A stretch of 64,000 nt of DNA from Lacunisphaera sp. (GCA_029945445.1 JAQSCO010000057.1:294985-358984), one strand, 5' to 3'. Shown: positions 6,401 through 34,215, counted from the first letter of the stretch. Made by a program: numbers and translations. Notes: generated from the letters alone by a model not told the origin.

Positions 6401-6422
6401 GGGAGGCGGAATTTAGACCGGG

Positions 6423-6451: not shown

Positions 6452-6457
6452 GATTGG

Positions 6458-9335: not shown

Positions 9336-9397
9336 GCCGCAAGGATTCCGGATTCTGCAGTCGGAATCGAGACGGAATTGTGCCGCCGGCCGCGGGT

Positions 9398-17104: not shown

Positions 17105-20100
17105 ATGGCAGGAGCCCTTTTCACGCCTATGATCAGCCCAGCCAAAGCCCCGAATTACGTGACCTGCGACGCCAACGAGGCCGTCGCCTCGGTTGCCTAC
17201 CGCCTCAACGAAGTGATCGCCATCTACCCGATCACGCCGTCGTCGACGATGGCGGAGTTCTGCGACGAGTGGGCGGCCGGGCGCAAGCCGAACCTTTGGG
17301 GCGAAGTGCCGCGGATCGTGGAGATGCAGTCCGAGGGCGGCGTCGCCGGCGCGGTGCATGGCAGCATGCTCGGGGGCGCGCTGACCACCACCTTCACCGC
17401 GTCGCAGGGCCTCCTGCTGATGATCCCCAACCTCTACAAGCTCGCGGGTGAACTCCAGCCGTTCACCATGCACGTGAGCGCCCGCGCCCTCGCCGCGCAG
17501 GGCCTGTCGATTTTCGGCGACCACGCCGACGTCATGGCCTGCCGGGCCACGGGTTGCGCGCTGCTCTGCAGCAACTCCGGCCAGGAGGCGCACGATCTGG
17601 CCCTCGTCGCGCATGCCGCCAGCTACAAGGCCCGGCTGCCCTTCATCCATTTCTTCGACGGTTTCCGCACCTCGCACGAGGTTTCCAAGCTGGCCTTGCT
17701 CCCCGACGACGTGCTGCGCGCCGTCATCGACGAGGCCGACATTGCGGACTTCCGCGCCCGCGCCCAGTCGCCCGACCGGCCGATGCTGCGCGGCACGGCG
17801 CAGAATCCCGACGTCTATTTTCAGGGTCGCGAGTCGGTGAACCGTTTCTACGATCACCTGCCCGCCACGGTGCAGGCGGTGATGGACAAGTTCGCGGCCG
17901 CCACCGGCCGGAGCTATCACCTCTACGACTACTACGGCCACTCCGCAGCCGAGCGGGTCATCATCGCGATGGGCAGTGGCATCGAGACCATTTCCGAGAC
18001 CGTCGATTTTCTCAACGCCAAGGGCGAGAAGACCGGCGTCGTCTCCGTGCGGCTCTTCCACCCGTTCGACGTGCCGGCCTTCCTCGCCGCGCTGCCGAAG
18101 ACGGTGAAGCAGATCGCCGTTCTCGACCGCACGAAGGAGCCCGGCTCCATCGGCGAACCCCTTTACCTCAACACGGTCGCGGCGCTCTCCGCCGGCTGGA
18201 CCGGCGCGAGGCCCAAGGTCTGCGGCGGACGCTACGGGCTCGGCTCGAAGGAGTTCACCCCGGGCATGGTGTGTGCGGTGTTCCAGCACCTGTCGGCCGC
18301 GCAACCGCGGCACAATTTCACCGTCGGCATCAACGACGACGTCACCGGCCTGTCGCTGCCCTACGAGGCCGACTTCGACCTCGAGGCGGCGGACGTGCGC
18401 CGCTGCGTTTTCGTCGGGCTCGGCGCCGACGGCACCGTCGGCGCGAACAAGAATTCCATCAAGATCATCGGCGAGCAGACGGACAACTTCGCCCAGGGCT
18501 ACTTTGTCTACGACTCGAAGAAGTCCGGCTCGATGACGACCTCGCACCTGCGTTTCGGCCCGCGGCCGATCCGGGCGCCCTACCTGATCCGGCGTGCCGA
18601 GTTCGTCGCGTGCAGCCAGTTCAGCTTCGTCGGCCGCACCGACGTGCTCGGCTTCGCCGCCCCTGGTGCGGTCGTGCTGCTCAATTCGCCGTATTCCGCC
18701 GCCGACACCTGGGCCAAGCTGCCGCTCGACTGGCAGCAGACCATCATCGCAAAAAAACTGCGGCTCTTCGTCATCGACGCCACCCAGGTTTCGCAGGCGA
18801 GCGGCATGGGCCGCCGCACGAACACGGTTCTCCAGACCTGCTTCTTCTTCCTCTCCGGCGTCCTGCCGCAGGACGAGGCCATCAAGCAGATCAAAAAGGC
18901 GATCGAGAAGACCTACGGCCGCAAGGGCGACCAGATCGTCAAGATGAACTACGCGGCCGTGGACGCGGCGCTTGCCGGCCTGCACGAGGTCAAGGTTCCC
19001 GTCTCGCCGCTGGCCGACGCGGTGGCCACCTTGCCGCCGACCTATCCGGGTGCGCCGGCCTTTGTCCGCGAGGTCACGGCCCGCCTCCTCGCCAACGAGG
19101 GCGACCTGATGCCGGTCAGCGCCCTGCCGAACGACGGCGCCTGGCCTACTGGCACCGCGCGTTTCGAGAAGCGCAACATCGCCCTCGAGATCCCCACTTG
19201 GGACGCCTCGATCTGCATCCAGTGCAACAAGTGCGTGTTGGTCTGCCCGCACGCCGCCATCCGCGCCAAGTTCTATGACCCCGTCGCGCTCGTGGGCGCG
19301 CCGGAGGACTTCAAGTCCGTGCCCTTCCGCTCGAACGAATTCCCGGGCCAGAAATACACCATCCAGGTCGCGCCCGAGGATTGCACCGGCTGCTCGCTCT
19401 GCGTGCAGGTCTGCCCGGCCAAGGACAAGTCCAACCCGCGCCACAAGGCGATCGACATGGTCGCCCAGGCGCCGCTGCTCGAGGCCGAGCGCACCAACTG
19501 GGATTTCTTCCTCGGTCTGCCCGATCCGGACCGCACCAAGCTTGATCTCTCGACGGTCAAGAACTCGCAGTTCCTGGCCCCGCTCATCGAGTTCTCCGGC
19601 GCCTGCGCCGGCTGCGGTGAGACGCCCTACCTGAAGCTCCTCACGCAGCTCTTCGGCGACCGCCTCGTGATGGCCAACGCCACGGGCTGCTCCTCGATCT
19701 ACGGCGGCAACCTGCCGACGACGCCCTATTGCGCCAACAAGGAAGGCCGCGGCCCGGCGTGGGCCAATTCGCTCTTCGAGGACAACGCCGAGTTCGGCCT
19801 CGGCCTGCTGCTCGCGGTCGAGCAGCGCGCCAAGTCCGCCAATGAAAATCTCCAGAAACTCGCCGCCAAAGTTGGCCCGGACCGCGTGGCCGCGCTTCTG
19901 CAGGCCGATCAAAGCACCGAGACCGGCATCGCCGAGCAACGCACGCGGGTCGCCGCCCTCAAGGTGGCGCTCGCCAAGTTCGACGAGGCCGACGCCCAGC
20001 GCCTCCTCGCGCAGGCCGACGACCTCGTCAAGAAGACGGTCTGGATCATTGGCGGCGACGGCTGGGCCTACGACATCGGCTACGGCGGGCTCGACCACGT

Positions 20101-20743
20101 GCTCGCCTCCGGCGCCAACGTGAAGGTCCTCGTGCTCGACACCGAGGTCTACTCCAACACCGGCGGCCAGGCCTCGAAGTCCACGCCGATGGGCGCGGTC
20201 GCCAAGTTTGCCTCCGGCGGCAAGGCCACGGCCAAGAAGGACCTGGCGCTTATCGCCATGCAATACGGCCACGTCTACGTCGCCCGCGTCGCCTTTGGCG
20301 CCAAGGACAACCAGACGCTCGCCGCCTTCCGCGAGGCCGAGGCCTATGACGGCCCCGCGCTCATCATCGCGTATTCGCACTGCATCGCGCATGGCTTCCC
20401 GCTCCACCTCGGCCTCGAGCAGCAGAAGCTCGCGGTCGACACCGGCTACTGGCCGCTCTTCCGCTACGACCCGCGCAACCTCGCGAAGGGCGAGGTTGGG
20501 CTGAAGCTGGATTCCGCCGCGCCGAAGACCGCGCTGTCGAAGTTCATGGCGAACGAGACACGCTTCGGGATCCTGCGCAACGTCGACCCCGACCGCGCCA
20601 GCGAGCTCGGCGCGATGGCCCAGGAACAGGTGCGCACGCATTACGCCCTCTACCAGCAGCTCGCCGCAGCGCCGGCGGGAGCCAAGTCGTCCGCCCCGAC
20701 GGCCACGCCCGACCCGAAACCCCCAACCCCCGCCACGCCATGA
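17105..20743 (+). CDS. nifJ: Pyruvate:ferredoxin (flavodoxin) oxidoreductase
   Basis: Oxidatively decarboxylates pyruvate to acetyl-CoA and CO2, reducing ferredoxin or flavodoxin. It is a single-chain enzyme of about 1,212 residues with fused domains in the usual order. The N-terminal pyrimidine half has AIYPITPSSTMAEFCDEW, then a GTVGANKNSIKIIG gamma domain. The two-[4Fe-4S] ferredoxin domain has CIQCNKCVLVCP and CTGCSLCVQVCP. The proximal cluster and TPP domain has CAGCGETPYLKLL, ATGCSSIYGG and GGDGWAYDIGYGGLDHV. The last residues are a Pro/Ala-rich tail. A second ATG at 17129 is an alternative start. The 3' end overlaps the DHOD-like gene by four bases (ATGA). Confidence 0.95.
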   Translation: MAGALFTPMISPAKAPNYVTCDANEAVASVAYRLNEVIAIYPITPSSTMAEFCDEWAAGRKPNLWGEVPRIVEMQSEGGVAGAVHGSMLGGALTTTFTASQGLLLMIPNLYKLAGELQPFTMHVSARALAAQGLSIFGDHADVMACRATGCALLCSNSGQEAHDLALVAHAASYKARLPFIHFFDGFRTSHEVSKLALLPDDVLRAVIDEADIADFRARAQSPDRPMLRGTAQNPDVYFQGRESVNRFYDHLPATVQAVMDKFAAATGRSYHLYDYYGHSAAERVIIAMGSGIETISETVDFLNAKGEKTGVVSVRLFHPFDVPAFLAALPKTVKQIAVLDRTKEPGSIGEPLYLNTVAALSAGWTGARPKVCGGRYGLGSKEFTPGMVCAVFQHLSAAQPRHNFTVGINDDVTGLSLPYEADFDLEAADVRRCVFVGLGADGTVGANKNSIKIIGEQTDNFAQGYFVYDSKKSGSMTTSHLRFGPRPIRAPYLIRRAEFVACSQFSFVGRTDVLGFAAPGAVVLLNSPYSAADTWAKLPLDWQQTIIAKKLRLFVIDATQVSQASGMGRRTNTVLQTCFFFLSGVLPQDEAIKQIKKAIEKTYGRKGDQIVKMNYAAVDAALAGLHEVKVPVSPLADAVATLPPTYPGAPAFVREVTARLLANEGDLMPVSALPNDGAWPTGTARFEKRNIALEIPTWDASICIQCNKCVLVCPHAAIRAKFYDPVALVGAPEDFKSVPFRSNEFPGQKYTIQVAPEDCTGCSLCVQVCPAKDKSNPRHKAIDMVAQAPLLEAERTNWDFFLGLPDPDRTKLDLSTVKNSQFLAPLIEFSGACAGCGETPYLKLLTQLFGDRLVMANATGCSSIYGGNLPTTPYCANKEGRGPAWANSLFEDNAEFGLGLLLAVEQRAKSANENLQKLAAKVGPDRVAALLQADQSTETGIAEQRTRVAALKVALAKFDEADAQRLLAQADDLVKKTVWIIGGDGWAYDIGYGGLDHVLASGANVKVLVLDTEVYSNTGGQASKSTPMGAVAKFASGGKATAKKDLALIAMQYGHVYVARVAFGAKDNQTLAAFREAEAYDGPALIIAYSHCIAHGFPLHLGLEQQKLAVDTGYWPLFRYDPRNLAKGEVGLKLDSAAPKTALSKFMANETRFGILRNVDPDRASELGAMAQEQVRTHYALYQQLAAAPAGAKSSAPTATPDPKPPTPATP

Positions 20744-21735
20744 AACTCGCGACCACCTACCTCGGGCTCAAGCTGAGCAACCCCCTCATCGTCGGCGCCT
20801 CGCCGTTCTGCGACAACGTCAAGCTCGCCTGCCAGCTCCAGGATGCCGGCGCCGGCGCACTGGTCATGCGCTCACTCTTCGAGGAGCAGATTGACCTCGA
20901 GCAGCGTGCGATGGTGCGCGACATCGAATCAGCGACGGCGGCGGGCGGCTCCGAGGCGGCGAGCTACTTCCCGGAATACTCGGAGTATCAGCTCTCGCTC
21001 GACCGCTACCTGCGCCAGATCCAGGGCCTGAAGGCGCTGGTGAAGGTGCCCATCATCGCCTCGCTGAACGGCTGCCGGCCGGGTGGCTGGACCGACTTCG
21101 CGCGGCGCTTCCAGGATGCGGGCGCGGACGCCATCGAGCTGAATCTTTACAACCTCGCCACCGATCCTGGAATTTCCGGAGCGGAGGTGGAATCGGACAT
21201 GCTGGAAACCGTCGGCAACGTAGTCGGGGCGGTGCATATTCCCATCACGGTGAAGATATCGCCGTTCCACGCCTCGCCGGTGAATTTCGCCATGGAGCTG
21301 GAAAAAGCCGGCGCGAAGGGCGTGGTGCTGTTCAACCGGTTTTATCAGCCGGACTTCAACCTCGAGGACTTCGAGGTGCATCCGCAGCTCAAGCTTTCCG
21401 ATTCCAGCGAACTGCTGCTGCGTTTGCGCTGGCTGGCCAACATTTCCCCGCATTTGCAGGGCTCGCTCTCGGCGACCGGCGGCGTGCACACTTCAGAAGA
21501 CGCGATCAAGGCGCTGCTGGCCGGGGCACACACCGTCCAGCTCGTGTCGGTGCTGCTCAAGCACGGCCCGCGCTATCTCTACACGCTGTTGCAGGGCATG
21601 CGGAAATGGATGGAGGAGCACGGCTACGAAAGCATCGACCAGCTCCGGGGCGCGCTCAACCAGCACCGCTGCCCGGACCCCTCGGCGCTGGAGCGCGCGA
21701 ACTACATCCGCGTGCTGCAGAGCTGGCGGGTGTGA
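20740..21735 (+). CDS. Dihydroorotate dehydrogenase-like protein linked to nifJ
   Basis: Flavin-binding TIM barrel of 331 residues. It resembles class 1 dihydroorotate dehydrogenase/PreA enzymes: YLGLKLSNPLIVGASPFCDN at the start, a long central insertion, DAGADAIELNLYN, VKISPF, GVVLFNRFYQPDFNL and SLSATGGVHTSEDAIKALLAGAHTVQLVS at the FMN phosphate site. Its start overlaps the nifJ stop (ATGA), so the two are translationally coupled. Homologues commonly sit beside nifJ, and a redox partner role for PFOR or ferredoxin is plausible but unproven. It is probably not the pyrimidine-pathway enzyme, given this context. Confidence 0.85.
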   Translation: MKLATTYLGLKLSNPLIVGASPFCDNVKLACQLQDAGAGALVMRSLFEEQIDLEQRAMVRDIESATAAGGSEAASYFPEYSEYQLSLDRYLRQIQGLKALVKVPIIASLNGCRPGGWTDFARRFQDAGADAIELNLYNLATDPGISGAEVESDMLETVGNVVGAVHIPITVKISPFHASPVNFAMELEKAGAKGVVLFNRFYQPDFNLEDFEVHPQLKLSDSSELLLRLRWLANISPHLQGSLSATGGVHTSEDAIKALLAGAHTVQLVSVLLKHGPRYLYTLLQGMRKWMEEHGYESIDQLRGALNQHRCPDPSALERANYIRVLQSWRV

Positions 21736-21819: not shown

Positions 21820-23274
21820 CTACTGGAACAGCCCCAGCAGCGCCGACGGCCACAGGCCGAGCACCACGATCAGTGCCGCGGCGGCCAGCAGCGCGAGGGC
21901 GGCGGTCGCGGGCACCTTGATCGGTGACGACTCCTTCGCCGGCGCGACCAGCGCCTGTTTCAGGATCAGCAGATAGTAATAAAGGGCCACGGCACTCAGC
22001 GCGATCGCCAGCAACGCCAGCCATCCCGCGGGTCCGCCCATTTGCAGCGCGGCGGAGAACACGACGAACTTGCCGACAAACCCGGCCAGCGGCGGGATCC
22101 CCGCCAGCGACAGCACGAAGACAAACAGGCAGCCGGCGAGCAGCGGCGAGCGCGCGCGCAGGCCGGCGAGGTCGCCGAGGTCGCCGAGGTTTTGGCAGCG
22201 GCCGGCACGCTCGACCACCGCGATGACGCCGAAGGCCCCGACCGTGGCGAGGCCGTAGGTCGCGGCATAATAGAACAGCGGTCCCGGGCCGGAGTGCCCG
22301 GCGGCAATCACGCCCAGCAGCAGCGCGCCGGCGTGCGCGATGGCCGAGTAGGCAAGCAGCCGGCGGACATTGCCCTGGGCCAGGGCGGCGAAATTGCCGA
22401 GCAGCATCGAAGCGGCGGAAATCAGCGCCACGACGGGCAGCCAGCCGGCCGCCCCGGTCAGATTGCCGGCCGCCGCACCGAGCCCGGGCCAGAGCAGCCG
22501 GAGGAAAAGGGCGAGCCCGGCGAGCTTGGAGGCCGAGGCGATCAGGGCGGCGGACGGAGCGGGCGCACCCTCGTAGACATCCGGCGCCCACAGGTGGAAG
22601 GGGGCGGCGGCGGCCTTGAAGCCGAAGGCCACGAGAATCATCACCAGCGCCACCACCAAGAGCGGGCTCGGGCCGCTCATCGCCAGCTGGACGGAAATTT
22701 CCTGCAGTTCGATCGAACCGGTCAGGCCGTAGAGCAGGCTGAAGCCGAAGAGCAGGAAGGCCGCGGAGACGCCGCCGACCAGGAAATATTTCAGCGCCGC
22801 CTCGGCGGACTCGGGCCGCGACTTGTCGAAGCCCGCGAGCACATAGAGCGACAGGCTGGCCGTCTCCAGCGCGAGGAACGCCAGCAGCAGCTGCTGGGCG
22901 ACGGCCATGAGGGTGAAGCCGGTGGTGGCGAACAGGATCATCGCGACCAGCTCCGCCGGGTGGCGCAGCCGGGAGGTGCCGGCGGTGACGCCGAGCGCGA
23001 GGAGCGCGAGCCCGAGCACGCCCGCGCGGGTGGCTTGGGCCAGCATATCAAGTGAAAGGACGCCGCCAAAGAGCGGCCCCGGCTGACCGGCACCCAGACC
23101 CCACACACCGGCGGTGACGAGAGCGAGGACGCCGAGGGCGGCGGAGATTTGCAGGCGCTGCTGCGGGCTGCGCGAATTTTTCGGCAGGTCGACCGCCAGC
23201 ACGGCCAGCGCACCCGCGACGAGGCAGATCTCGGGCCGCAGCGCGAGCAGGAGTTCGCCATAGGGCGTGTTCAT
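21820..23274 (-). CDS. nuoN: NADH-quinone oxidoreductase subunit N
   Basis: Antiporter-like membrane subunit of complex I, about 484 residues with some 14 hydrophobic helices. Conserved features are a Glu in LAFLALETASLSLYVL and Lys in AFGFKAAAAPFHLWAPDVYEG and IASASKLAG, the ion-path residues of the Mrp-type antiporter fold. The start at 23274 overlaps the stop of the second nuoM (ATGA), so upstream in-frame codons were rejected. It is the last gene of the nuo operon, followed by a short repeat and the convergent DHOD-like gene. Confidence 0.93.
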   Translation of the reverse strand: MNTPYGELLLALRPEICLVAGALAVLAVDLPKNSRSPQQRLQISAALGVLALVTAGVWGLGAGQPGPLFGGVLSLDMLAQATRAGVLGLALLALGVTAGTSRLRHPAELVAMILFATTGFTLMAVAQQLLLAFLALETASLSLYVLAGFDKSRPESAEAALKYFLVGGVSAAFLLFGFSLLYGLTGSIELQEISVQLAMSGPSPLLVVALVMILVAFGFKAAAAPFHLWAPDVYEGAPAPSAALIASASKLAGLALFLRLLWPGLGAAAGNLTGAAGWLPVVALISAASMLLGNFAALAQGNVRRLLAYSAIAHAGALLLGVIAAGHSGPGPLFYYAATYGLATVGAFGVIAVVERAGRCQNLGDLGDLAGLRARSPLLAGCLFVFVLSLAGIPPLAGFVGKFVVFSAALQMGGPAGWLALLAIALSAVALYYYLLILKQALVAPAKESSPIKVPATAALALLAAAALIVVLGLWPSALLGLFQ

Positions 23275-24773
23275 GGGTGGCCTCCCTTGATCACGGCCTG
23301 GAAAGCCGGCGACTGCAGGGCGGGAACGATCCAATCAAGCAGCACGTCCGGCTTGAGTCCGACATACACGGTGGCCCCGAGGAGCAGCAACGCGCCGGCC
23401 TTTTCGGCGAGCGTGATCGGCGGCAGCGGATGGCTGTCGGCTGGCGGGGCGGAGTGCGCGCCGGCCGAGCCGAAGAACGAAACCTGGATGACGCGCAGCG
23501 TGAACGCGCCGGCCACCACAATGCCGAGGGCGGCGACGGCGGCCCAGAGCGGTTTCGCCTGCCACGCGCCGATGAGGATGCTCAGCTCGGCGGGGAAGCC
23601 GCTGAAGCCCGGCAGGCCGAGCGAGGCGAGCCCGGCCACGACAAACACGACGGCGGCGAACGGCAGCAGGCGGTGCAACGGCATCGCCCTTAGTTCGGCG
23701 AGCCGGCGGGTGTGGGTGCGTTCATAGACCATGCGGCCGACCACGGCGAAGAGTAGGCCGGCGATGACGCCGTGCGAGAACATCTGCAGCACCGCCCCCG
23801 CCAAGGCCAGCGGCGTGGCGGCCGCGAGCCCGAGCAGCACGAAGCCCATGTGGCTCACGCTCGAGTAGCCGATGACAAACTTGAAGTCCTCCTGCACGAG
23901 CGCGATGAAACCCGCGTAGAGGATGCCCGCGAGGGCGAGCCACGCGATGACCGGCTGCCAGTAGGCGAAGGCCTCGGGGAACAGCGGCATTGCCACGCGC
24001 AGGCAGCCGTAGGCGCCGAGCTTCATCACCACGCCGGCGAGCAGCATCGAGGCGGCGGTCGGCGCGGCCACGTGGCCGGTCGGCGCCCAAGTGTGAAAGG
24101 GAAACAGGCCGGCCAGGACGGCGAAGCCGAGGAAGACCAGCGCGAAGATCGCGAGCTGCGTGCCATGGGGGATGTGGACGGCGGCCGCGCTGAGTTCCGC
24201 GAGCCCGAAGCCGTGCGCGCCGCCCGCCGCGTAGGCCCACAGCATCCCGGCCAGCACCAGTGCGCTGCCGGCGAAGGAATAGAGCACGAGCTTCATCGCG
24301 CCGTATTCGCGGTTGGTGGAGCCCCAGATCGCGATGAGAAAATATTTCGGCACGATCGCGATCTCGTAGAACACGAACAGCACGAAGACATCGGCGCTCA
24401 GGAACACGCCATACACGCCGCCGATCAGCGCAAGGAAGAGCGCGAAAAACTCGCCCGGGCGCTCCTCAATGTTCCAGGAAAACAAAATGCCGGCGGTGGC
24501 CGCGAGGCCCGTGAGCACGAGCAGCGTCAGGCTGATGCCGTCGACCGCGAGGTGGTAGTTCACGCCCAGCTCACGAATCCACGGGACGTCGACGAGGGTC
24601 TGCAGACTGGAACCGGGTACAAACTCCCGGGCGGCGAGGAAGGTCAGCGTCGCGCCGGCCACCGCGGTGGCGAGGGCGACCCAGCGGGCGGCCGTGGCCG
24701 AGCGTGCCCCGACCACCAGCGCGAGGAAGGCGCCGGCAAAGGAGACGTAGATGGTCCAGGGCAGCAGGTTCAT
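23271..24773 (-). CDS. nuoM: Second NADH-quinone oxidoreductase subunit M (variant)
   Basis: Antiporter-like membrane subunit of about 500 residues, the second of two adjacent and clearly different NuoM proteins. It keeps the conserved Glu (E137 in VFYEIAIVPKYF) and the helix-8 Lys (K251 in VVMKLGAYG). The helix-7 lysine (Lys234 of E. coli NuoM) is replaced: AVLAGLFPFHTWAP here against AVKVPLFPFHTWLP in its neighbour, giving Leu at residue 220. A GHVAAPTAASMLLAG loop follows. Start 24773 overlaps the preceding stop by four bases. The gene lies between the canonical nuoM and nuoN, which fits an extra pump module in the membrane arm. Confidence 0.92.
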   Translation of the reverse strand: MNLLPWTIYVSFAGAFLALVVGARSATAARWVALATAVAGATLTFLAAREFVPGSSLQTLVDVPWIRELGVNYHLAVDGISLTLLVLTGLAATAGILFSWNIEERPGEFFALFLALIGGVYGVFLSADVFVLFVFYEIAIVPKYFLIAIWGSTNREYGAMKLVLYSFAGSALVLAGMLWAYAAGGAHGFGLAELSAAAVHIPHGTQLAIFALVFLGFAVLAGLFPFHTWAPTGHVAAPTAASMLLAGVVMKLGAYGCLRVAMPLFPEAFAYWQPVIAWLALAGILYAGFIALVQEDFKFVIGYSSVSHMGFVLLGLAAATPLALAGAVLQMFSHGVIAGLLFAVVGRMVYERTHTRRLAELRAMPLHRLLPFAAVVFVVAGLASLGLPGFSGFPAELSILIGAWQAKPLWAAVAALGIVVAGAFTLRVIQVSFFGSAGAHSAPPADSHPLPPITLAEKAGALLLLGATVYVGLKPDVLLDWIVPALQSPAFQAVIKGGHP

Positions 24774-26290
24774 GGCAGGTGCGCGGCCCACGCGGTGACC
24801 AGCGGGTTGAAAACGCTGATGACGATCTGCGGCAGCACGCCGAACAGGAACATCAGGACGACGAAGGGCAGCAGGGTGAGAAACTCGACGCGGTCGAGGT
24901 CGCGGAACGCCGCGACGCCCGCGGCCACGGGACCGTGGAAGACGCGTTGCCAGAAGGTGAGCAGGAAAAGCGCGGTGGCGAGCAGCCCGAGACAGGCGAC
25001 GCCGGCGGCCCACGGCGCAAGGCCGAACACGCCGCGGAAGATGAGGAATTCCCCAACGAAGCCGTTGAGCCCCGGCAGGCCGAGGGACGAGAACATCGCG
25101 ATGCCGCAGAAGCCGGCGAAGAGCGGAGCGACGGTGCGCACGCCGCCGAAGTCATCGAGCCCGCGCAGGCCGCCCGCGCGGGCCTCGAGGATGCCGACGC
25201 ACGCGAACAGTGCGGCGGCGGAGAGGCCGTGGTTGAACATCTGCAGCAGCGTGCCGCTGAGCGCGGCCGCCGCGGCGTCCGGCTTGGTCGCGCTGGCGAC
25301 GGCAAAGAGCGCGAGCAGGCAGTAGTTGAGGTGGTTGATCGAGGAGTAGGCGACCATGCGCTTGAGGTCCGTCTGCTTCATCGCCGCGAAGGCCCCGAGC
25401 ACCACGCCGCCGAGCGCGAGCCAGAGCAGGCACGGGGCGGCGGCGTGCAGCTGCGCCGGGAAGAGCGGCCAGAGGATCCGCAGGAAACCGTAGACGCCCA
25501 TCTTCGACATGACGCCGGTGAGGAACATCGAGACGCCCGTCGGCGCCTCCGCATACGCCGGCGGCAGCCAGGTGTGAAAGGGGAACAGCGGAACCTTGAC
25601 CGCCAGGCCGAGGAACACGCCGACGAAGACCACCTGCGGCCAGAAATGGCCGAGGCCCGCGAGCTTGGGGCCGAGCTGGCCGGTGGCGGCCAGTTGCGCG
25701 AGATCGGTGAAGTTCAGCGTGCCGGTCGCCGCGTAGAGGGCGGCGAAGCCCAGCAGCATGCACGCGCCGCCGGCGAGCGTGTAGATGACGAACTGGTAGG
25801 CCGCGCGCGTCGCGCCAGGGCCGCCCCAGATCTTGATCAGGAAGAAGGCGGGCACGAGGCTCACTTCCCAGAAGATGAACCAGTGGAAGAAATCGAGCGC
25901 GAGGAACACGCCGAGGGCCGCGCCCTGCAGCAGCAGGAAGAGCATCCCGAAGGCGCGCGGGCAGCGCTCGACCCGCCATGAGGCGAGCAGGCAGAGCGGT
26001 GAGACGATGCCGGTGAGCAGCACCAGCAGCAGGCTCAGGCCGTCGAGGCCGAGGTGGTAGTTGACGTTCAGCGCCTTGATCCACGCGTGGCGCTCAACGA
26101 GCTGGTAACCGGCAGCGTGTGGATCGAAAGAACCCAGCACCACGAGGGCCAGTGCCAGGGTGGAAAGGCTGAAGAGCAGTGCGAGCGCGCGGTTCGTGCT
26201 GGCGCTGACGCTGCGGCCGACGAAGGCGAGCACGACGGTTCCGGCCCACGGCGCGAAGACGATCAGGGAAAGCAGGGGCAGCGAGTTCAC
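24770..26290 (-). CDS. nuoM: NADH-quinone oxidoreductase subunit M (canonical copy)
   Basis: Antiporter-like subunit of complex I, 506 residues, about 14 helices. All ion-path residues expected for NuoM are present: Glu142 in FIFWEVSLVPAFFLIKIWGG, Lys232 in AVKVPLFPFHTWLPPAYAEAPTG and Lys263 in VMSKMGVYGF, together with DLKRMVAYSSINHLNY. It overlaps nuoL upstream and the second nuoM downstream, each by four bases. It differs along its whole length from the second NuoM, so this is an old paralogue pair and not a recent duplication or an assembly error. Confidence 0.95.
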   Translation of the reverse strand: MNSLPLLSLIVFAPWAGTVVLAFVGRSVSASTNRALALLFSLSTLALALVVLGSFDPHAAGYQLVERHAWIKALNVNYHLGLDGLSLLLVLLTGIVSPLCLLASWRVERCPRAFGMLFLLLQGAALGVFLALDFFHWFIFWEVSLVPAFFLIKIWGGPGATRAAYQFVIYTLAGGACMLLGFAALYAATGTLNFTDLAQLAATGQLGPKLAGLGHFWPQVVFVGVFLGLAVKVPLFPFHTWLPPAYAEAPTGVSMFLTGVMSKMGVYGFLRILWPLFPAQLHAAAPCLLWLALGGVVLGAFAAMKQTDLKRMVAYSSINHLNYCLLALFAVASATKPDAAAAALSGTLLQMFNHGLSAAALFACVGILEARAGGLRGLDDFGGVRTVAPLFAGFCGIAMFSSLGLPGLNGFVGEFLIFRGVFGLAPWAAGVACLGLLATALFLLTFWQRVFHGPVAAGVAAFRDLDRVEFLTLLPFVVLMFLFGVLPQIVISVFNPLVTAWAAHLP

Positions 26291-28299
26291 TTGGCCCCTC
26301 CCATCACGACGAGCAGCACGAGAATGACGAAGCCCAGCGCGATGAACCGCAGGTAACCGTGCACATCGCCGGTCTGCGCGCGGGAGTAGGCGAGGCCGGT
26401 GCCGCGGACTTTTTCGCTGACGCTGTTGAAGCCGCCGTTGAGCGTGCGCTCATCCGCCTCGCGATTCACCAGACCGGTGAACTCGCCGAGCCGGGCGAGC
26501 AGCGTGACGATCCCGCCCCACAGCCAGACCTCGAGGAAGTTGGCGAACGCGGCCGACGCGGCATTGAGCCGGCCGAACGTCGCGGCGTAGAGTTCGTCGA
26601 ACTTCAGTTTCGCGGCGAGGAAGGCGATGAGGCCCGGCGAAGCGGTCGCGAGGGGATCGGCGGACGTCTCGCTGACACGCGGTTTGCGGCCGTAGATGGC
26701 CCAGCCGCTGCCGAGGCCGAGCGCGACGAGCACGATGGAAAGAACCATGAGGCTGATGCCGTCCGGTTCGCTGTGCGCCGAAGGGTCGAGTTGGTGCTGC
26801 AACCACGGCGAGGGCCACGCGAGCAGGCTCAACAGGACGGCGCACACGGCGAGGATCACGAGCGGGATGGTCATCGTCGCCGGGCTCTCGTGCGCGTGGC
26901 CGGCCGCGTCGGAGCGCGCCTTGCCGAAGAAGGTCTCGGCCACGAGACGCGTCATGTAGAACGCGGTCAGGACGACGGCGATCAGGGCGGCGTAGAACGG
27001 CAGCTGGGAAACTTCCCAACCGTGCGCGGCGTGCAGGATGGCCTCCTTGCTCCAGAAGCCGGAGAAGAGGAACGGCACGCCGGAGAGAGCCATCATGCCG
27101 ATGGCAAAGGTGGCGAAGGTGACCTTCATCGGCCCGCGCAGGCCGCCGAGCCGGCGGATGTCCTGCTCGTGGTGCGCGGAATGAATGACCGAGCCGGCGC
27201 CGAGGAAGAGGAGGGCCTTGAAGAAAGCGTGCGTGAGCAGGTGGAAGATGGCGGCGACCCACGAGCCGACGCCGAGGGCGAGCATCATGTAGCCGAGCTG
27301 CGAGACGGTGGAGAACGCGAGGACGCGCTTGATGTCGTTTTGCGCGACGGCGATGCAGGCGCCCATGAGCGCGGTGATGGCGCCGATAAAGGCGACAACG
27401 GTCAGCGCGTGCAGCGGAACGTGCGCCAACACCTGGTCGGCGGACATCAGCGGGTAGACACGGGCGATGAGGAAGACGCCGGCGGCCACCATCGTGGCGG
27501 CGTGGATGAGAGCGCTGACCGGTGTCGGGCCCTCCATCGCGTCAGGGAGCCAGACATGCAGCGGGAACTGGCCGGACTTGCCGACCGCACCGCAGAAAAT
27601 CAGGAGACCGATGGCGGTGGAGACGGCGAGGCCGCCCGCCGTGAACTGCGCCGCGAGCGAGCCCAGCGCGGCGGTCTCGAGCACACCGGCCCCGCCGTCG
27701 AAGAAGAGCAGCGAGCCGGTGGAATTGTAGAGCCACAGCATGCCGAGCAGCAGGCCGAGGTCGCCGATGCGCGTTGTGATGAAGGCCTTTTTTGCGGCGG
27801 CAGCGGCGGACGGCTTGTGGAACCAGAAGCCGATGAGCAGATACGAGGCGAGGCCGACCAGCTCCCAGCAGATGAAGAGCAGCAGGAGGCTGTTGGCGAC
27901 GAGCAGGCCGAGCATCGCGGCGGCGAACAGGCTGAGAAAGCAGAAGAACTGCTTGAAGTTCTCGTCCGCCTTCATGTAGCCGAGGCTGAAGATGAAGATC
28001 AGCGCACCGACGAAGGTGACCATCACGCACATGAACGCCGTGAGCGGGTCGAGCAGCCAGCCGAGGCGCAGCGCGCTGGTCCCGAGGTCGAACCAGGCGA
28101 AGTTGTGCACGAGTTTGGCGGCCGGGTCGGCCAGCGCGGTGCTCAGCGCGACACAAGACACGAGGAAGGCCGCGAGCATCGCCGCGATGGCGGCGCCGGC
28201 GGCGATTGCGCGTCCGCTCCGCGGCATCAGCGCGCCAACGGCGGCGGCGGCGAGCGGCAGCGCGGGGATGAACCAGAGTTTTTCGGCGGAAAGGGTCAT
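26287..28299 (-). CDS. nuoL: NADH-quinone oxidoreductase subunit L
   Basis: Distal antiporter-like subunit of complex I, 670 residues. Key residues: Glu146 in LLFICWELVGLASYLLIGFW, Lys241 in GAVGKSGQFPLHVWLPDAMEGPTPVSALIHAATMV, and the helix-12/13 region. The C-terminal lateral amphipathic helix that braces the membrane arm lies about residues 565-650, from FDELYAATF to AQTGDVHGYLR. From FDELY to QTG this stretch is roughly 25 residues longer than in the proteobacterial sequences I can recall, which is what a longer arm would need. The ATG at 28299 follows nuoK by 3 bases and the stop overlaps nuoM by four. Confidence 0.94.
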   Translation of the reverse strand: MTLSAEKLWFIPALPLAAAAVGALMPRSGRAIAAGAAIAAMLAAFLVSCVALSTALADPAAKLVHNFAWFDLGTSALRLGWLLDPLTAFMCVMVTFVGALIFIFSLGYMKADENFKQFFCFLSLFAAAMLGLLVANSLLLLFICWELVGLASYLLIGFWFHKPSAAAAAKKAFITTRIGDLGLLLGMLWLYNSTGSLLFFDGGAGVLETAALGSLAAQFTAGGLAVSTAIGLLIFCGAVGKSGQFPLHVWLPDAMEGPTPVSALIHAATMVAAGVFLIARVYPLMSADQVLAHVPLHALTVVAFIGAITALMGACIAVAQNDIKRVLAFSTVSQLGYMMLALGVGSWVAAIFHLLTHAFFKALLFLGAGSVIHSAHHEQDIRRLGGLRGPMKVTFATFAIGMMALSGVPFLFSGFWSKEAILHAAHGWEVSQLPFYAALIAVVLTAFYMTRLVAETFFGKARSDAAGHAHESPATMTIPLVILAVCAVLLSLLAWPSPWLQHQLDPSAHSEPDGISLMVLSIVLVALGLGSGWAIYGRKPRVSETSADPLATASPGLIAFLAAKLKFDELYAATFGRLNAASAAFANFLEVWLWGGIVTLLARLGEFTGLVNREADERTLNGGFNSVSEKVRGTGLAYSRAQTGDVHGYLRFIALGFVILVLLVVMGGAK

Positions 28300-28302
28300 G
28301 GC

Positions 28303-28614
28303 TCAGCCTTTCAAGCGGGTCGCCTCCTGCAGGCGGATGTTTTGCTGGTGACGGTAGATCGCGATCACGAGCGCCAGGCCGACGGCGGCCTCGGCGGCGG
28401 CGGCGGCGATGGAAAACAGGACGAAGATGACGCCGGTGCCGGCGTCCGGGTGCGGGCCGTAGCGCCAGAAGGCAATGAAGTTGATGTTGGCGGCGTTCAG
28501 CATCAGCTCGACGCCGAGCAGCACGAGGATGGCGTTGCCGCGCGACAGCACGGCGACGAGCCCGATGCAGAAGAGCAGGCTGGAGAGGACGAGGCAGAGC
28601 TGCAACGGACTCAT
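28303..28614 (-). CDS. nuoK: NADH-quinone oxidoreductase subunit K
   Basis: Small membrane subunit of 103 residues with three helices. It carries the two conserved Glu of the ion channel near the quinone site: one in LLGVELMLNAANINF and one in AAAAAEAAVGLALVIAIYR. Start MSPLQLCLVL at 28614 overlaps the nuoJ stop by four bases; a longer in-frame ORF upstream is a shadow of nuoJ. The length and motif order are standard. Confidence 0.94.
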   Translation of the reverse strand: MSPLQLCLVLSSLLFCIGLVAVLSRGNAILVLLGVELMLNAANINFIAFWRYGPHPDAGTGVIFVLFSIAAAAAEAAVGLALVIAIYRHQQNIRLQEATRLKG

Positions 28615-29129
28615 GGCGCGTCCTCCGGTTGGTCGCGGCGTTCGTCCGACGCCAGCACCACGGCGCCGAGCAGCGACACGGTGAGCAACAGGCCGATGAC
28701 GAGCAGCGCGGCGGTGTGCGGTCCCATTAGCTGCGCGCCCAGAGCCTTGACGGTCAGCGTGGGCGTGGTCCCCGCGGTGCGGACCTCCAGCGGCATGCCG
28801 AGGATCGCCCCAAGCAGCACGCCTGCGACCCCGCCGCCCGCGATGAGCCCGGTGATGAAGCGGCTGACGGAATTGAACTCGACCGGCTCCGGGGCGTGGC
28901 CCTGCTTGGTCAAAAGCACGGCGAACAGCACCACCATGGAAATGGCGCCGACATAAATGAGGATCTGCGCAAAAGCCACGAACTCGGCGCCCGCCCACAG
29001 GTAGAAACCCGCGATGCCCGCCCAGCTGCCGATGAGCAGCAGCGCGCTGTAGATCAGGTTGCGCAACGCCATTGCCACCGCGGCGGAGCCCAGGATGAGC
29101 AGCGACAGAAGGATGAGCGCAAAGGTCAT
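28611..29129 (-). CDS. nuoJ: NADH-quinone oxidoreductase subunit J
   Basis: Membrane subunit of 172 residues with five predicted helices. The helix-3 signature AEFVAFAQILIYVGAISMVVLFAVLLT, with the pi-bulge region of NuoJ, is intact. Start MTFALILLSLLILG at 29129 overlaps the nuoH stop (ATGA), and the stop overlaps nuoK in the same way. The last residues (ASDERRDQPEDAP) are cytoplasmic and acidic. Confidence 0.93.
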   Translation of the reverse strand: MTFALILLSLLILGSAAVAMALRNLIYSALLLIGSWAGIAGFYLWAGAEFVAFAQILIYVGAISMVVLFAVLLTKQGHAPEPVEFNSVSRFITGLIAGGGVAGVLLGAILGMPLEVRTAGTTPTLTVKALGAQLMGPHTAALLVIGLLLTVSLLGAVVLASDERRDQPEDAP

Positions 29130-30361
29130 GACGCGGCGTATTGGTAGGTGCGCGGCGCGCGGCCGGCGTTGAGCCGGCGGCCGATGAGGACGAACGGGAG
29201 GACGACGATCGCAATCGATACGCCCCAGCGGACAAACTGCAGCGGGCCGGTCCAGCCGGCGGTCAGCGCCCAGAAGGCGGCGTTGCCGATGTTGACGAGC
29301 GCGAGCGGCACCATGAACTGCCAAGCTAGGCGCGTGAGCTGGTCGATGCGCAGGCGCAGCAGCGTGCCGCGCACCCAGATGAAGAAGACGATCATGCCGA
29401 TCAGCTTGCCCATGAACCAGAGATAAGAGGGGATGAACTGCAGGAAGGCGCACGGGGCCTGCCAGCCGCCGAGGAAGAGCGTGACGCCGAGGCCGCTCAG
29501 CGCGGTGAGGCCGAAATACTCGGCCATGAAGAACAGCGCATACTTGAAGCCGGAATATTCCGTGAGGTGGCCGGCGATGAGTTCACTCTCGGCCTCGGGC
29601 AGATCGAACGGCGAACGGTTGCTCTCGGCCAGCGCGGAGACCAGGAAGAGGACGAAGCCCGCGGCGCCCCACGGCGTGAAGACGAACCAGTGCGGCAGCG
29701 CGCCGAAGGTCCAGAAGCCCTGCGCGACGACGATTTCCCTCGTGGAAAGCGTGCCGGCGATGAGCACGACCGGGACGACGGAGAGGAGCAGCGGCAGCTC
29801 GTAGCTGATGACCTGCGCCAGCGCGCGCATGGCGGCGAGCAGCGAGTATTTGTTCCGGCTCGCCCAGCCGGCCATGAAGATGGCGAGCTCGGTGGCGGAA
29901 CCGGCGGCGAAGAAATAGAGCAGCGCGGCGTCGAGGTCGACCGGGATGAGGTTCCGGCCGAAGGGCAGCACGGCGAACGTGAGCAGCGAGAACGTCACGA
30001 CGAGCACCGGCGCGAGGAAGTGCAGCAGCTTGTCGGCGGCGGCGGGTACGATGTCCTCCTTGGTGAGCGCCTTCACGGCGTCGGCAAATGGCTGGGTGAG
30101 GCCCCAGAGCTTGGGGCCTTTCTGCCACCAGGGCAGGCCGGCGCGGTTCGGGCCGAGGCGGTTTTGCAGGCGGCCGAGCAATTTCCGTTCGGCGATGGTC
30201 GTGAACGCGAAGAAGGTGCCGAAGACCGCGAGGATCACGCCGACCGTGATCAGGTGGTGCACCAGCCACTGCGTGGGTGCGGGAAACCACTGCACGATGG
30301 CGTCGCGCAGCACGAGGGGAACGCGTTCGAGGTAGGCGTCGGCTCCGGCGGCGGTGTTCAT
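29126..30361 (-). CDS. nuoH: NADH-quinone oxidoreductase subunit H
   Basis: Membrane subunit at the quinone-binding junction, 411 residues. Signature segments: TIAERKLLGRLQNRLGPNRAG (ERKxLGRxQxRxGPNxxG), GWASRNKYSLLAAMRALAQVISYELPL, and the charged loop ESNRSPFDLPEAESELIAGHLTEYSGFKYALFFMAEY. The N-terminal helix is preceded by about 30 extra residues. It overlaps nuoI upstream and nuoJ downstream by four bases each. The gene order D-I-H here differs from the E. coli order G-H-I. Confidence 0.95.
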   Translation of the reverse strand: MNTAAGADAYLERVPLVLRDAIVQWFPAPTQWLVHHLITVGVILAVFGTFFAFTTIAERKLLGRLQNRLGPNRAGLPWWQKGPKLWGLTQPFADAVKALTKEDIVPAAADKLLHFLAPVLVVTFSLLTFAVLPFGRNLIPVDLDAALLYFFAAGSATELAIFMAGWASRNKYSLLAAMRALAQVISYELPLLLSVVPVVLIAGTLSTREIVVAQGFWTFGALPHWFVFTPWGAAGFVLFLVSALAESNRSPFDLPEAESELIAGHLTEYSGFKYALFFMAEYFGLTALSGLGVTLFLGGWQAPCAFLQFIPSYLWFMGKLIGMIVFFIWVRGTLLRLRIDQLTRLAWQFMVPLALVNIGNAAFWALTAGWTGPLQFVRWGVSIAIVVLPFVLIGRRLNAGRAPRTYQYAAS

Positions 30362-31023
30362 GCGGCGGGCGTCGTCGGTTTAGGGGCCGCCGCGCCGGGC
30401 GCGGGAGCTGGGTTGGCGGGAGGCGTGGCCGGGGCGGCGGCTTTGGCGGCGGCGGCCGCAGCCTTGGCCGCAGCGGCGGCCGCGGCTTTCTCCTCGGCGG
30501 CCTTGCGCTCGGCGGCGAGGCGCGTGTCGACCTCGTTGGCGTCCGTCGGGTGGATCTCGTGGAAGTAGCTGTTCGGCTTCGCGAGTTGCTCGCGGTTCAG
30601 GAGCAGGCCGGTGAAGCGGTTGGTCGCGGCGACCTCGAAGACCTGGTCCATCTTGATCGCGTCAAAGGGGCAGACCTCAACGCAGATCTGGCAGCTCATG
30701 CAGACGGAGGTGTCGATGGCGAAGACGGCGGGATAGAGCTGCGCCTTGCCCGTGGCGTCGGGCTTCTTGTCCTTGCTCTTCTCGATGTAGATGCACTGCG
30801 GTGGGCATTCCTTCTCGCAGATCTGGCAGGCGACGCAGCGCAGCGTGCCCATCGGGTCCGTGGCATTCTCGGTGACGAGGAAGGGGAAGTTGCGGTAATT
30901 CTCCGGGAGCTTCGGGCGCTCCTCGGGATACTGTTGGGTCACCATTCGCGCGGGATCGTGGTAGCTCCCCGCGAAATTCTTCGCGGTGACCAGGAGACCT
31001 TTGACTATGCCGGAGCCGAGCAT
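30358..31023 (-). CDS. nuoI: NADH-quinone oxidoreductase subunit I with Ala/Pro-rich tail
   Basis: Peripheral-arm subunit carrying two [4Fe-4S] clusters (N6a/N6b) that pass electrons to NuoB. The cluster ligands are Cys63-66-69-73 (CVACQICEKEC) with Cys77, and Cys108-111-114-118 (CMSCQICVEVC). The ferredoxin fold ends about residue 165. The remaining 55 residues are an AAAKAAAAAAK helix and a Pro/Ala tail without known function. Start at 31023 (MLGSGIVKGLLVTAKNF) fits the family. In a complex without NuoE/F/G this subunit would be the probable docking site for ferredoxin or another donor. Confidence 0.94.
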   Translation of the reverse strand: MLGSGIVKGLLVTAKNFAGSYHDPARMVTQQYPEERPKLPENYRNFPFLVTENATDPMGTLRCVACQICEKECPPQCIYIEKSKDKKPDATGKAQLYPAVFAIDTSVCMSCQICVEVCPFDAIKMDQVFEVAATNRFTGLLLNREQLAKPNSYFHEIHPTDANEVDTRLAAERKAAEEKAAAAAAAKAAAAAAKAAAPATPPANPAPAPGAAAPKPTTPAA

Positions 31024-31047: not shown

Positions 31048-32220
31048 TCAGCGGTCGACCTCGCCGAGGACGATGTCGATGGAGCCGAGGATGACGACGG
31101 AGTCGGCGATGGTGTGGCCGAGGCACATTTCCTCGAGGAGGGTAAGGTTGATGAGGGAGGGCGGGCGGACGCGGTAGCGATAGGGATTCGGTGAACCGTC
31201 GCTGATGAGATAGAAACCGAGCTCACCCTTCGGGCTCTCGATGCGGCCGTAGGCCTCGCCGGGCTTCGGGCGGAAGCCGCGGATCTTCGCCTTCGGGTCC
31301 ATGACCGGGCCGGCGGGCAGGTCGCGGAAGGCCTGCTGGAGGATTTTCACCGACTCGCGCATTTCGAGGACGCGCATCATATAGCGGTCGTAGGTGTCGC
31401 CATGCGCGCCAAGCGGCACGCGGAAATCAAAGCGCGGGTAGAAACCGTAGCCGTCGACCTTGCGGATGTCGTAATTGTAGCCGCTGGCGCGGAGGACCGG
31501 GCCGGTGAGGCCGGCGTTGACGGCTTTTTTTGCGTCGAGGACGCCGATGCCCTGGGTGCGGGCGAGCATGATCTCATTGCCCGTGAGCATCATCTCGTAT
31601 TCGTCGAGGAAGCGCGGGAAATTATTGACCAGCTGGCTGGCGGCGGCGAGCCACTCGGGGCTGGGATCAACGCGGCAGCCGCCGAAGCGCTGGAAGTTGC
31701 ACATCATGCGCGAGCCGCTGAGGGACTCGAAGAGATCGAGGATCTTCTCGCGCTCGCGGAAGGCATAGAGGAGCGGCGTGAACGACGTGCCGAGATCGTT
31801 GAACAGGAAGCCGACGAGGCAGCTGTGGTTCACGAGGCGCGTCAGCTCGGCGAGGATGACGCGGAGATACTGCGCGCGATCAGGCACGGCCTGGCCGGAG
31901 AGTTTCTCGACGGCGAGGGCGTAGGCCCAGTTGGTCGACATCGAGCAAAGGTAGTCGAGCCGGTCGGTGTAGGGCATCGAGCCGAGGTAGCTGGTGTTCT
32001 CGGCGATCTTCTCGTGGTTGCGGTGCAGGTAGCCGAAGACGGGCTTGAGCTTGACGACAATCTCGCCGTCGAGCGTCACGACCATGCGGAACACGCCGTG
32101 CGTCGACGGATGCTGCGGTCCCATCGAGACCTCGAGCAGGTCGCCGTGGAACGGGTCCTTGACCGCGCGGACGGTCGGGCCCGACGCGGGCGTGAAGGAG
32201 GAGAGATCGGAGACGCTCAT
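31048..32220 (-). CDS. nuoD: NADH-quinone oxidoreductase subunit D
   Basis: Quinone-site subunit of the peripheral arm, 390 residues, homologous to the large subunit of NiFe hydrogenases. Start [20 protein letters not shown] at 32220 overlaps the nuoC stop by four bases; a longer ORF upstream is a shadow. The quinone-binding loop [14 protein letters not shown] with its His pair is intact, as are [16 protein letters not shown] and the C-terminal [28 protein letters not shown]. The last residues, DIVLGEVDR, match the usual NuoD end. Confidence 0.96.
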
Positions 32221-32909
32221 GGCTTCCCCTCCTTCGCTGAAGCTACGGAGGGCCCGTCCGGCGGCTGCGCTGCAGGCGGGGGCGTTGGGTAATGCTGCTT
32301 GGCGCGATCGAGCACCTCGGCGTGCGGCGTGGGCTCCCATTCGTAATCGTCCGGGTCGACGTAGTCCTTGCGCATCGGATAATCCTTGAACTCGTCCCAC
32401 ATCAAAATGCGGCGCAGGTCGCGGTGGCCCTCGAAGACGATGCCGTAGAGGTCGAAGATCTCGCGCTCCTGGAAGTCGCACGAGCGCCACACCGGCGTGA
32501 GCGAGGGCAGCGTCACCTGGTCGGAGCGGTTGGTCGTGCGCAGCCGGATGATGACCGGGCCGTGGCGCAGCGCCATCGAGTAAAGATGGTAGACGGCCTC
32601 GAGGTAGCCGGGATCCATGCGCTTGGTTTTTTCTTCAACGATCTTGGGGGCGCCGCCCGCGGGGTCGGGCACGGTGAGCTTCTTGACGTCGATGATCTCC
32701 TTGTCCGGCCAGTCGACGCCGGTGGCGTTGGAGCAATAGTCGAGCTGCAGCGCGGGGTCGTCGCGGAGGAAGAGCGCGATCGCGTGGGCGTGGGCGGCCC
32801 CGAGGAGCAGCGAGTGCTCGGCGGCCGGGCCGGGATTCGTCACGAGCGTGACCGTGGCGCCCGGGAAGCGGGCGAGGAGACGGTCGCGGATTTGCTCGGT
32901 GGTTTCCAT
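32217..32909 (-). CDS. nuoC: NADH-quinone oxidoreductase subunit C
   Basis: Peripheral-arm subunit of 230 residues. The family signature is present: [49 protein letters not shown]. It is a separate protein, not fused to NuoD as in E. coli. The C-terminal 35 residues are low-complexity ([11 protein letters not shown]). Start 32909 lies three bases after the nuoB stop. Confidence 0.94.
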
Positions 32910-32912: not shown

Positions 32913-33644
32913 TCAGGCCTTGGTCGGGCGGGAGAGGGGCGCCGTCGGCTTCCAGACCTCGGGGTTCTTCGGCGGCTGCAAGTCGTGCGCGCCGTATTCC
33001 GGCACGGGAAACTCGCTCGGCATTTCCGGGCGCAGGTGGCGGCCCTGGGCGGGGCCGGACAGCGTCTCGGCGCGGATCTGTTTCTGCAGTTCCATGAGTC
33101 CGTTGAGCAGCGCCTCGGGGCGCGGCGGGCAGCCGGGGATGTAGATGTCGACGGGGATGAAGCGGTCGATGCCCTTGAGGACATTGTAGCCCTGCTTGAA
33201 GGGGCCGCCGGAAATCGCGCACGCACCCATCGCGATGCAGTATTTCGGCTCGGGCATCTGGTTCCAGAGGCGGACGACCTGCGGGGCCATCTTCTTGGTG
33301 ACGGTGCCGGAGACGATCATCAGATCGGCCTGCCGCGGCGAGGGGCGGAAAATCTCGGCGCCGAAGCGCGCGATGTCGAAGCGCGCGGTGGCCGCGGCAA
33401 TCATCTCGATGGCGCAGCAGGCTAGGCCGAACTGGAGCGGCCAGATGGAATTGGTGCGGCCCCAGTTGTAGAGCTCCTCGAGGCTGGTGAGCAAAATGCC
33501 GTGGCGCCGCAGCTCCTCGCGCTCGGCGTCGGAGATGTTGCCGGCGGCGGGGAAAGGCTGCACCGTTCCGGCCTGCTGGCCGGCCGGTGTTTGTCCGGGC
33601 CGGTCGCCCGGCAAAGGTGCTGGCGTGGATTGGGGGTCGCTCAT
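32913..33644 (-). CDS. nuoB: NADH-quinone oxidoreductase subunit B
   Basis: Carries cluster N2, the last [4Fe-4S] centre before quinone. Ligands: tandem Cys76-Cys77 in [10 protein letters not shown], Cys in [10 protein letters not shown] and Cys in [10 protein letters not shown], all intact. The core is flanked by a 45-residue Pro/Gln-rich N-terminal extension and a 50-residue C-terminal extension, making 243 residues against about 160-220 in many species. The start ATG at 33644 is one base from the nuoA stop. Confidence 0.95.
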
Positions 33645-33645: not shown

Positions 33646-34017
33646 TCATTTCCACTCGAGGTGTCCGCGGTGCCAGGCCCAGACCAGGCCTTCGGCGAGC
33701 AAGAGGATGAAAACCAGCATGGCGAGCAGCGCGCCCACCGGGAGGCTGGTGAAGGTGACGGCGAAGGGCAGGAGGAACAGCACCTCGACGTCGAAGATCA
33801 GGAACAGGATCGCATAGAGGTAATAGTGGGCCTTGAACTGGATCCACGAGTCGCCGGACGGGGCCAGGCCGCACTCGTAGGTGGAGTTTTTCATTGGTCC
33901 GGGCTTGGCTGCCTGAAAACACCGAATCCAGAGCTGGGCGACCCCGAGCAGGATGAGCGGAAACGCCAGCGCGACCCCGGCAAAGAGGGCGAGAAAAGCG
34001 TAGGGGTGGTCGCTCAT
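33646..34017 (-). CDS. nuoA: NADH-quinone oxidoreductase subunit A
   Basis: Small membrane subunit, 123 residues, three helices. The loop between helices 1 and 2 has [50 protein letters not shown], the complete NuoA signature including the YECG Cys that changes exposure with the active/deactive state. It is the first gene of the operon. The promoter should lie in the 198-base space shared with the divergent ferredoxin gene. Confidence 0.95.
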
Positions 34018-34215
34018 GAACCGTAAAAGTGGGTGGGGAGCGGCCTTGCTTCAATGGCAAATCCTCCCTGCCCATTGTCCAAAGCTTCTCATCCCTTGTC
34101 CTGTGCCGCCGGCGGGGCGGTCCCGCCCGGGCAATATCCGGCAAGCTTTGGTCAATCGGTGCAGAGCCCCAAGCCGGCCCCGCTGGTAGACTGGAGGCTC
34201 AACCCACCTATATAT
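34018..34215. promoter_or_regulatory. Divergent control region between nuoA and the ferredoxin gene
   Basis: No gene is seen in these 198 bases. They hold an inverted repeat, CAAAGCTT (34080-34087) and AAGCTTTG (34143-34150), enclosing a GC-rich hairpin-prone segment, and a TATATATATG run that includes the ferredoxin start. Promoters for both the nuo operon and the ferredoxin must lie here, but no convincing -35/-10 pair was found. Confidence 0.4.

Follow-up and report, generated by a model that had tools for sequence, protein, structure and literature searches.

The DNA analyzed here, a window of 64 kb out of a 4.17 Mb assembly of Lacunisphaera sp., encodes, as judged from its sequence, a complex I of the 2M type, made up by the products of twelve nuo genes (A-D, I, H and J-N), including two old and different NuoM subunits, and lacking an NADH-oxidising module. 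The enzyme is most likely a ferredoxin:quinone oxidoreductase that pumps protons, its membrane arm containing four pumps. The 2M complex itself is already known, and the new detail is the lysine pattern of M2, one of the two NuoM subunits.

Organization of the gene cluster

Reading frames and NCBIfam profiles define an uninterrupted nuoA-B-C-D-I-H-J-K-L-M1-M2-N array, located on the minus strand from position 34017 to position 21820 of the window. The open frames of nuoL, nuoM1 and nuoM2, and the end of nuoN at 21820, coincide exactly with the coordinates given in a preliminary description of this DNA. The genes for a pyruvate:ferredoxin oxidoreductase (PFOR) and for a dihydroorotate dehydrogenase (DHOD)-like protein, both on the plus strand, converge on nuoN, and a small ferredoxin gene, the product of which is a candidate electron carrier, diverges from nuoA. 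The features are the following:

17105-20743, plus strand: single-chain NifJ-type pyruvate:ferredoxin (flavodoxin) oxidoreductase (Pfam POR_N, POR, EKR, PFOR_II)
20740-21735, plus strand: DHOD-like flavoprotein (Pfam DHO_dh, 53 bits), overlapping the PFOR gene
21820-23274, minus strand: nuoN (TIGR01770, 358 bits, cut-off 333), start inferred at MNTPYGEL
23271-24773, minus strand: nuoM2, 500 aa (TIGR01972, 442 bits, cut-off 264)
24770-26290, minus strand: nuoM1, 506 aa (TIGR01972, 474 bits, cut-off 264)
26287-28299, minus strand: nuoL, 670 aa, with a 25-residue insertion in the lateral helix, segment 567-644 (NCBIfam PRK06590, 630 bits, cut-off 556)
28303-28614, minus strand: nuoK (reading frame, start inferred; homologues at the same position in most loci)
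28611-29129, minus strand: nuoJ (reading frame, start inferred; homologues at the same position in most loci)
29126-30361, minus strand: nuoH (PRK06076, 301 bits)
30358-31023, minus strand: nuoI, with two 4Fe-4S motifs (TIGR01971, 86 bits; Pfam Fer4)
31048-32220, minus strand: nuoD (PRK06075, 432 bits, over cut-off), start inferred at MSVSDLSS
32217-32909, minus strand: nuoC, separate from nuoD (TIGR01961, 100 bits, under the cut-off of 122)
32913-33644, minus strand: nuoB (NCBIfam PRK14819, 332 bits, over cut-off)
33646-34017, minus strand: nuoA (NCBIfam NuoA-type matches)
34033-34449, plus strand: single-cluster 4Fe-4S ferredoxin (Pfam Fer4_13, 62 bits), with a counterpart in locus L096

The NuoI protein (30358-31023, minus strand) features an Ala/Pro-rich C-terminal tail, extending for about 50 residues beyond both 4Fe-4S motifs. 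On contig C51 the same genome has another complex I, of the canonical kind, with nuoE, nuoF, nuoG and a single nuoM, and on contig C56 a HoxEFU-type module, followed by the gene for a [NiFe] hydrogenase large subunit (L152, G000:C56 from 95000, 4440-9413).

Two old nuoM lineages

The M1 and M2 proteins of the window are only 38.1% identical over 486 positions, and thus neither is a recent copy of the other. A recent tandem duplication of nuoM was rejected on this ground, and because the two proteins belong to different clades. In a tree of 67 proteins, M1, M2 and canonical verrucomicrobial NuoM form one clade each, and both M genes must therefore be old and have been kept. In the same tree M2 and canonical NuoM are sisters (98/93), M1 standing apart; their relation is only probable, because the tree has some long branches, and its backbone is not resolved around the NuoM of E. 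coli, Paracoccus and Thermosynechococcus.

M2 orthologues were found in 65 of the 150 genomes monitored in the family (Opitutaceae), and the L-M1-M2-N order recurs in Verrucomicrobiota and Acidobacteriota, so that chance or assembly error may be dismissed. 2M complexes, of a putative ferredoxin type, are common in Opitutaceae, given this frequency. The best 80 loci in a scan of named genomes are from Verrucomicrobiota, Acidobacteriota, and a small number of MAGs whose names are questionable, the closest M2 proteins being those of Opitutaceae and other Opitutae (Verrucomicrobiota). The full A-B-C-D-I-H-J-K-L-M1-M2-N order is kept in Opitutaceae, other Verrucomicrobiota and Acidobacteriota. MAGs named Klebsiella pneumoniae or Akkermansia muciniphila (L073, L074, L080, L093 and L108) hold 2M clusters of Verrucomicrobiota type, and are apparently mislabelled.

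Variation in gene arrangement was observed. M2 and nuoN are separated from L and M1 in five loci (L058, L059, L062, L111 and L116), hosted by Puniceicoccales, Spartobacteria and another Verrucomicrobiota MAG; in these genomes an extended NuoL is encoded elsewhere. A Cephaloticoccus MAG (L053:14417-20428) carries a different second complex I cluster (A, B, D, H, I, J, K, L), beginning about 2.5 kb past nuoN of its 2M cluster. Apparent three-NuoM complexes in L101 and L109 were discarded, since what looked like an additional NuoM was in either case the C-terminal part of a single M1 gene, read in a different frame. The M2-like match in genome G160 (L041/L154) was similarly rejected as a 2M complex, the M gene being single and NuoL unextended. 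The NuoM of this complex (L154, G160:C33) is M2-like, about 47% identical, with a leucine at the TM7 position and, as a further ground for the rejection, a threonine at the site of M2 Lys143; the complex possibly resembles a state preceding the 2M arrangement.

Channel residues of M1, M2 and canonical NuoM

The four-residue set of the NuoM channel (TM5 Glu, TM7 Lys, TM8 Lys, TM12 Glu) is complete in M1 and incomplete in M2. M1 of the window retains Glu142, Lys232, Lys263 and Glu414, and among 68 M1 proteins the first three residues are invariant, the TM12 Glu being present in all except one gapped row. In M2 of the window Glu137, Lys251 and Glu396 are retained, Leu220 is found at the position of the TM7 lysine, and a lysine, Lys143, resides in TM5. 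The TM7 lysine (aligned to E. coli Lys234) is replaced by leucine in 81 out of 81 M2 proteins from two phyla. Invariant in the same proteins are TM5 Glu137, TM8 Lys251, TM12 Glu396, two channel histidines, and Lys143, a residue specific for M2 and located six residues past Glu137. The corresponding site is mostly Ala in M1, Leu in NuoN, and Ser in NuoL. Lys143 is also present in 43 members of a second collection of 44 M2-type proteins, drawn in part from the same genomes, the exception being the single-M G160 protein; so far, this lysine has not been found outside the M2 proteins of 2M clusters. Judged by its profile match (TIGR01972, 442 bits), M2 is still a NuoM, one channel residue of which is missing.

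The loss of the TM7 lysine had to be rejected as a mark of M2 only. Canonical NuoM of Verrucomicrobiota also lacks this residue (GFGILVSLWPLHTW) and features two adjacent TM8 lysines (LKKFG), both in 26 out of 26 readable sequences (the canonical NuoM of this genome, with a leucine at the TM7 position as in M2, lies at 11670-13205 of L001, G000:C51:1-18000; further readings are from L122-L151). Hence, the loss is either earlier than the 2M arrangement or independent of it.

Because the TM7 lysine is a leucine, the gate between the proton half-channels of M2 would have to be built differently, and Lys143 is the candidate replacement for the lost residue. We tentatively suggest that M2 may be a rewired antiporter-like subunit, in which the lysine of the TM5 Glu/TM7 Lys gate is gone, its role being taken over by TM5 Lys143; if so, the gate of the fourth pump would differ from the gates of the other three. 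According to a recent review, the TM7 Lys/TM5 Glu pair belongs to the minimum set of residues, and is treated as conserved (PMC10212512); this review is all that was found in the literature on a TM7 lysine not conserved in NuoM. No description of the M2 lysine pattern was found in the literature searched, in which the work of Chadwick et al. 2018 is represented by the papers citing it, and nothing of use was found joining Verrucomicrobia, NuoM and ferredoxin. The coupling of redox chemistry to pumping over the long arm of complex I is still disputed. Current models tie the proton count to how many antiporter-like subunits are present, and treat the TM7 Lys/TM5 Glu pair as necessary. Both claims may be directly tested on a complex with four antiporter-like subunits, one of which is devoid of the TM7 lysine, in a cell that also has a canonical complex I, the sole NuoM of which lacks this residue as well.

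The NuoL lateral helix

The FDELY to QTG segment of the 2M NuoL (residues 567-644) is 78 aa long. The equivalent segment measures 52 aa in Thermosynechococcus NdhF and in Thermus, and 53 aa in Mycobacterium smegmatis and in the canonical NuoL encoded by this genome, the 2M protein exceeding by 25 residues both its canonical counterpart and the three solved structures. In one alignment of 62 NuoL from 2M clusters, counting from the D of FDELY through the G of QTG gives 77 residues in 59 proteins, and 78 in 3. This stretch spans 77-78 residues also in nine further NuoL from 2M genomes, five of which have M2-N apart from L-M1 (L158-L162). Since the same stretch is 51-54 residues long in four canonical NuoL, one of them from this genome, as well as in the single-M complex L154 (52 residues), the insertion is, on these alignments, tied to the second NuoM, and almost fixed in length.

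The AlphaFold2 model of 2M NuoL, obtained from a 33-row alignment (pLDDT 83.6, pTM 0.81), features one unbroken helix of 76 residues (564-639), vs. 53 residues (542-594) in the model of the canonical NuoL; the helix ends are predicted with low confidence, pLDDT being lower than 50 at residues 638-647 of the former and 586-613 of the latter. At 1.5 A each, the 25 extra residues lengthen the helix by about 37 A, a distance similar to the width that one antiporter-like subunit takes up along the complex I arm, and the extra helix would be close to the length needed to span one more such subunit. In structure comparisons the 2M NuoL model clearly matches NuoL chains, the best being 8e9g_L (Z 48.8, rmsd 3.4, 581 residues aligned). 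Close alignments (rmsd about 2) mostly end near residue 590, inside the lateral helix, and longer ones have a larger rmsd. The solved structure nearest to 2M NuoL is Thermosynechococcus NdhF.

The preliminary description had reported two adjacent nuoM genes between nuoL and nuoN, differing throughout, and a NuoL segment some 25 residues longer than in proteobacterial sequences, and had read them as a four-antiporter 2M arm with a longer NuoL helix. The frames, the level of identity and the separate, old M1 and M2 clades agree with the former, as the alignment (78 vs. 52-53 aa) does with the estimate of the insertion; the 62 homologous NuoL and the predicted helices add to the sequence in support of a four-antiporter arm.

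The electron donor

nuoE, nuoF and nuoG are absent from the 2M cluster of the window, and were not found inside the 2M cluster in any complete relative locus from Verrucomicrobiota and Acidobacteriota. A search for an extra nuoEFG set serving the 2M complex found none in the genome, as the C56 genes are hydrogenase genes; besides these HoxEFU-type genes, the only other NuoE/F-type genes are those of the canonical complex I on C51. Because nuoE, nuoF and nuoG are missing, a fact unremarked in the preliminary description, ferredoxin is a likelier donor than NADH, which strengthens the low-potential donor considered there. The other option considered there, more protons per electron pair via M2, is made less straightforward by the lack of the TM7 lysine, and is not assured.

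PFOR and DHOD-like genes converge on nuoN in the window, in L044, L045 and L096, in the Spartobacteria locus L113, and in L156 (genome G161, from another family within the same class). In the Acidobacteria loci L082 and L095 a PFOR gene is located upstream of nuoA, on the opposite strand. PFOR is no fixed neighbour, and adjoins nuoN in 4 of the 53 related loci extending for at least 4 kb past nuoN. Among the 150 genomes of the family, 65 have M2, 73 this PFOR, and 45 both. PFOR is found in 45/65 genomes with M2 and 28/85 without it (odds ratio 4.6, p 1.5e-5, uncorrected for relatedness); when close PFOR homologues are considered, M2 is found in 27/33 (odds ratio 9.4, p 6e-7, also uncorrected for relatedness). 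The recurrence of clusters lacking nuoE, nuoF and nuoG in two phyla, and the association with PFOR, favour ferredoxin over NADH.

In the mechanism we propose, both NuoM subunits would be lodged in one arm, flanked by NuoL and NuoN. Reduced ferredoxin, supplied for example by the neighbouring PFOR, would donate electrons at or near NuoI, whence they would reach quinone. The redox drop, bigger than that of NADH, would cover the cost of the longer arm and also, provided that M2 pumps, of moving five protons instead of four with each electron pair. Against this stand the rarity of the PFOR gene beside nuoN (4/53 loci), where it lies on the opposite strand, the 20 of 65 M2 genomes in which no match to this PFOR was found, and the lack of the TM7 lysine, which leaves pumping by M2 not assured.

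Alternative explanations

The complex may be driven by NADH, working as an NADH:quinone oxidoreductase with a longer arm, and borrowing either the HoxEFU proteins of the hydrogenase or NuoE, NuoF and NuoG of the canonical complex I. The genome does offer both, a complete E, F and G set being encoded on C51, and HoxE, HoxU and a NuoF-type subunit on C56. We consider this quite improbable, because no complete related locus, in either of two phyla, has E, F or G in the cluster, PFOR is associated with M2, and, on general bioenergetic grounds, the transfer of electrons from NADH to menaquinone yields little energy for five protons. The complex might also run in reverse, quinol being oxidised and ferredoxin reduced at the expense of the proton gradient. 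The adjoining PFOR yields reduced ferredoxin upon oxidation of pyruvate, and this makes reverse running unlikely, although the same gene content would permit it. Reverse running has been proposed for the Nitrospira 2M complex, as a supply of ferredoxin for CO2 fixation (PMC6606698, PMC12342949).

Other alternatives concern the second NuoM. M1 and M2 might reside in different versions of a three-pump complex, and never together, as both are full NuoM-type proteins, and M2-N lies apart from L-M1 in five loci (see above). This is highly improbable, because the 25-residue extension is found in every 2M NuoL examined, even when the genes are apart, and is absent from single-M complexes, and because separate M1 and M2 clades have both been retained. 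M2 might otherwise be a passive spacer or relay, lengthening the arm but pumping no proton. The leucine found at the TM7 position in all 81 M2 proteins, and the inclusion of the TM7 Lys/TM5 Glu pair in the minimum set (PMC10212512), are in line with this. Yet the canonical NuoM of Verrucomicrobiota likewise lacks the TM7 lysine (26/26 readable sequences) in an otherwise ordinary complex I, and M2 invariably keeps TM5 Glu, TM8 Lys, TM12 Glu and the two channel histidines, together with the M2-specific Lys143; a passive M2 seems therefore rather unlikely. A ferredoxin:quinone oxidoreductase with four pumps remains the preferred reading.

Comparison with known systems

The eleven-subunit complex I and the cyanobacterial NDH-1, in which ferredoxin is the donor, lack E, F and G as the complex described here, but have three antiporter-like subunits and no helix extension (segment of 52 aa). 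Green complex I has two MrpD-like subunits and no NuoL, whereas a true NuoL is encoded in the window.

The definition of 2M complex I goes back to Chadwick et al. 2018 (ISME J 12:2668), whose hypothesis, as rendered in citing papers, is that a fifth proton is translocated per cycle. The window shares with this type two NuoM genes accompanied by NuoL and NuoN, and a helix insertion of much the same length (25 residues, vs. about 26). The Nitrospira-type complexes (clade 3, e.g. Nitrospira moscoviensis) are described, in papers citing this work, as featuring a second NuoM, a lengthened NuoL, no NuoE and NuoF, and a hypothesised link to ferredoxin (PMC6606698); NuoC and NuoD are separate (PMC12342949), and the insertion in the NuoL amphipathic helix is about 26 aa long (PMC9040806). 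Compared by published description only, the window cluster shares the second NuoM, the longer NuoL, the separate NuoC and NuoD, and the absence of NuoE and NuoF. It lacks nuoG as well, has an insertion of 25 aa, and belongs to Opitutaceae, Verrucomicrobiota, a different phylum. The L, M1, M2, N order is that reported for the 2M complex I of Chloroflexi (nuoLM1M2N; PMC7117926). Acidobacterium capsulatum has an unusual complex I with a duplicated nuoM, which is transcribed, and is called NADH dehydrogenase in that paper (PMC11636273); the loci aligned here are those of other Acidobacteriaceae, and share with the window gene order, extension length and M2 signature. These published cases agree with the remark, made in the preliminary description, that 2M enzymes are known in other bacteria. 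As insertion length, lack of NuoE and NuoF, separate NuoC and NuoD, and LM1M2N order agree with those published, the complex encoded in the window is a new instance of the known 2M type.
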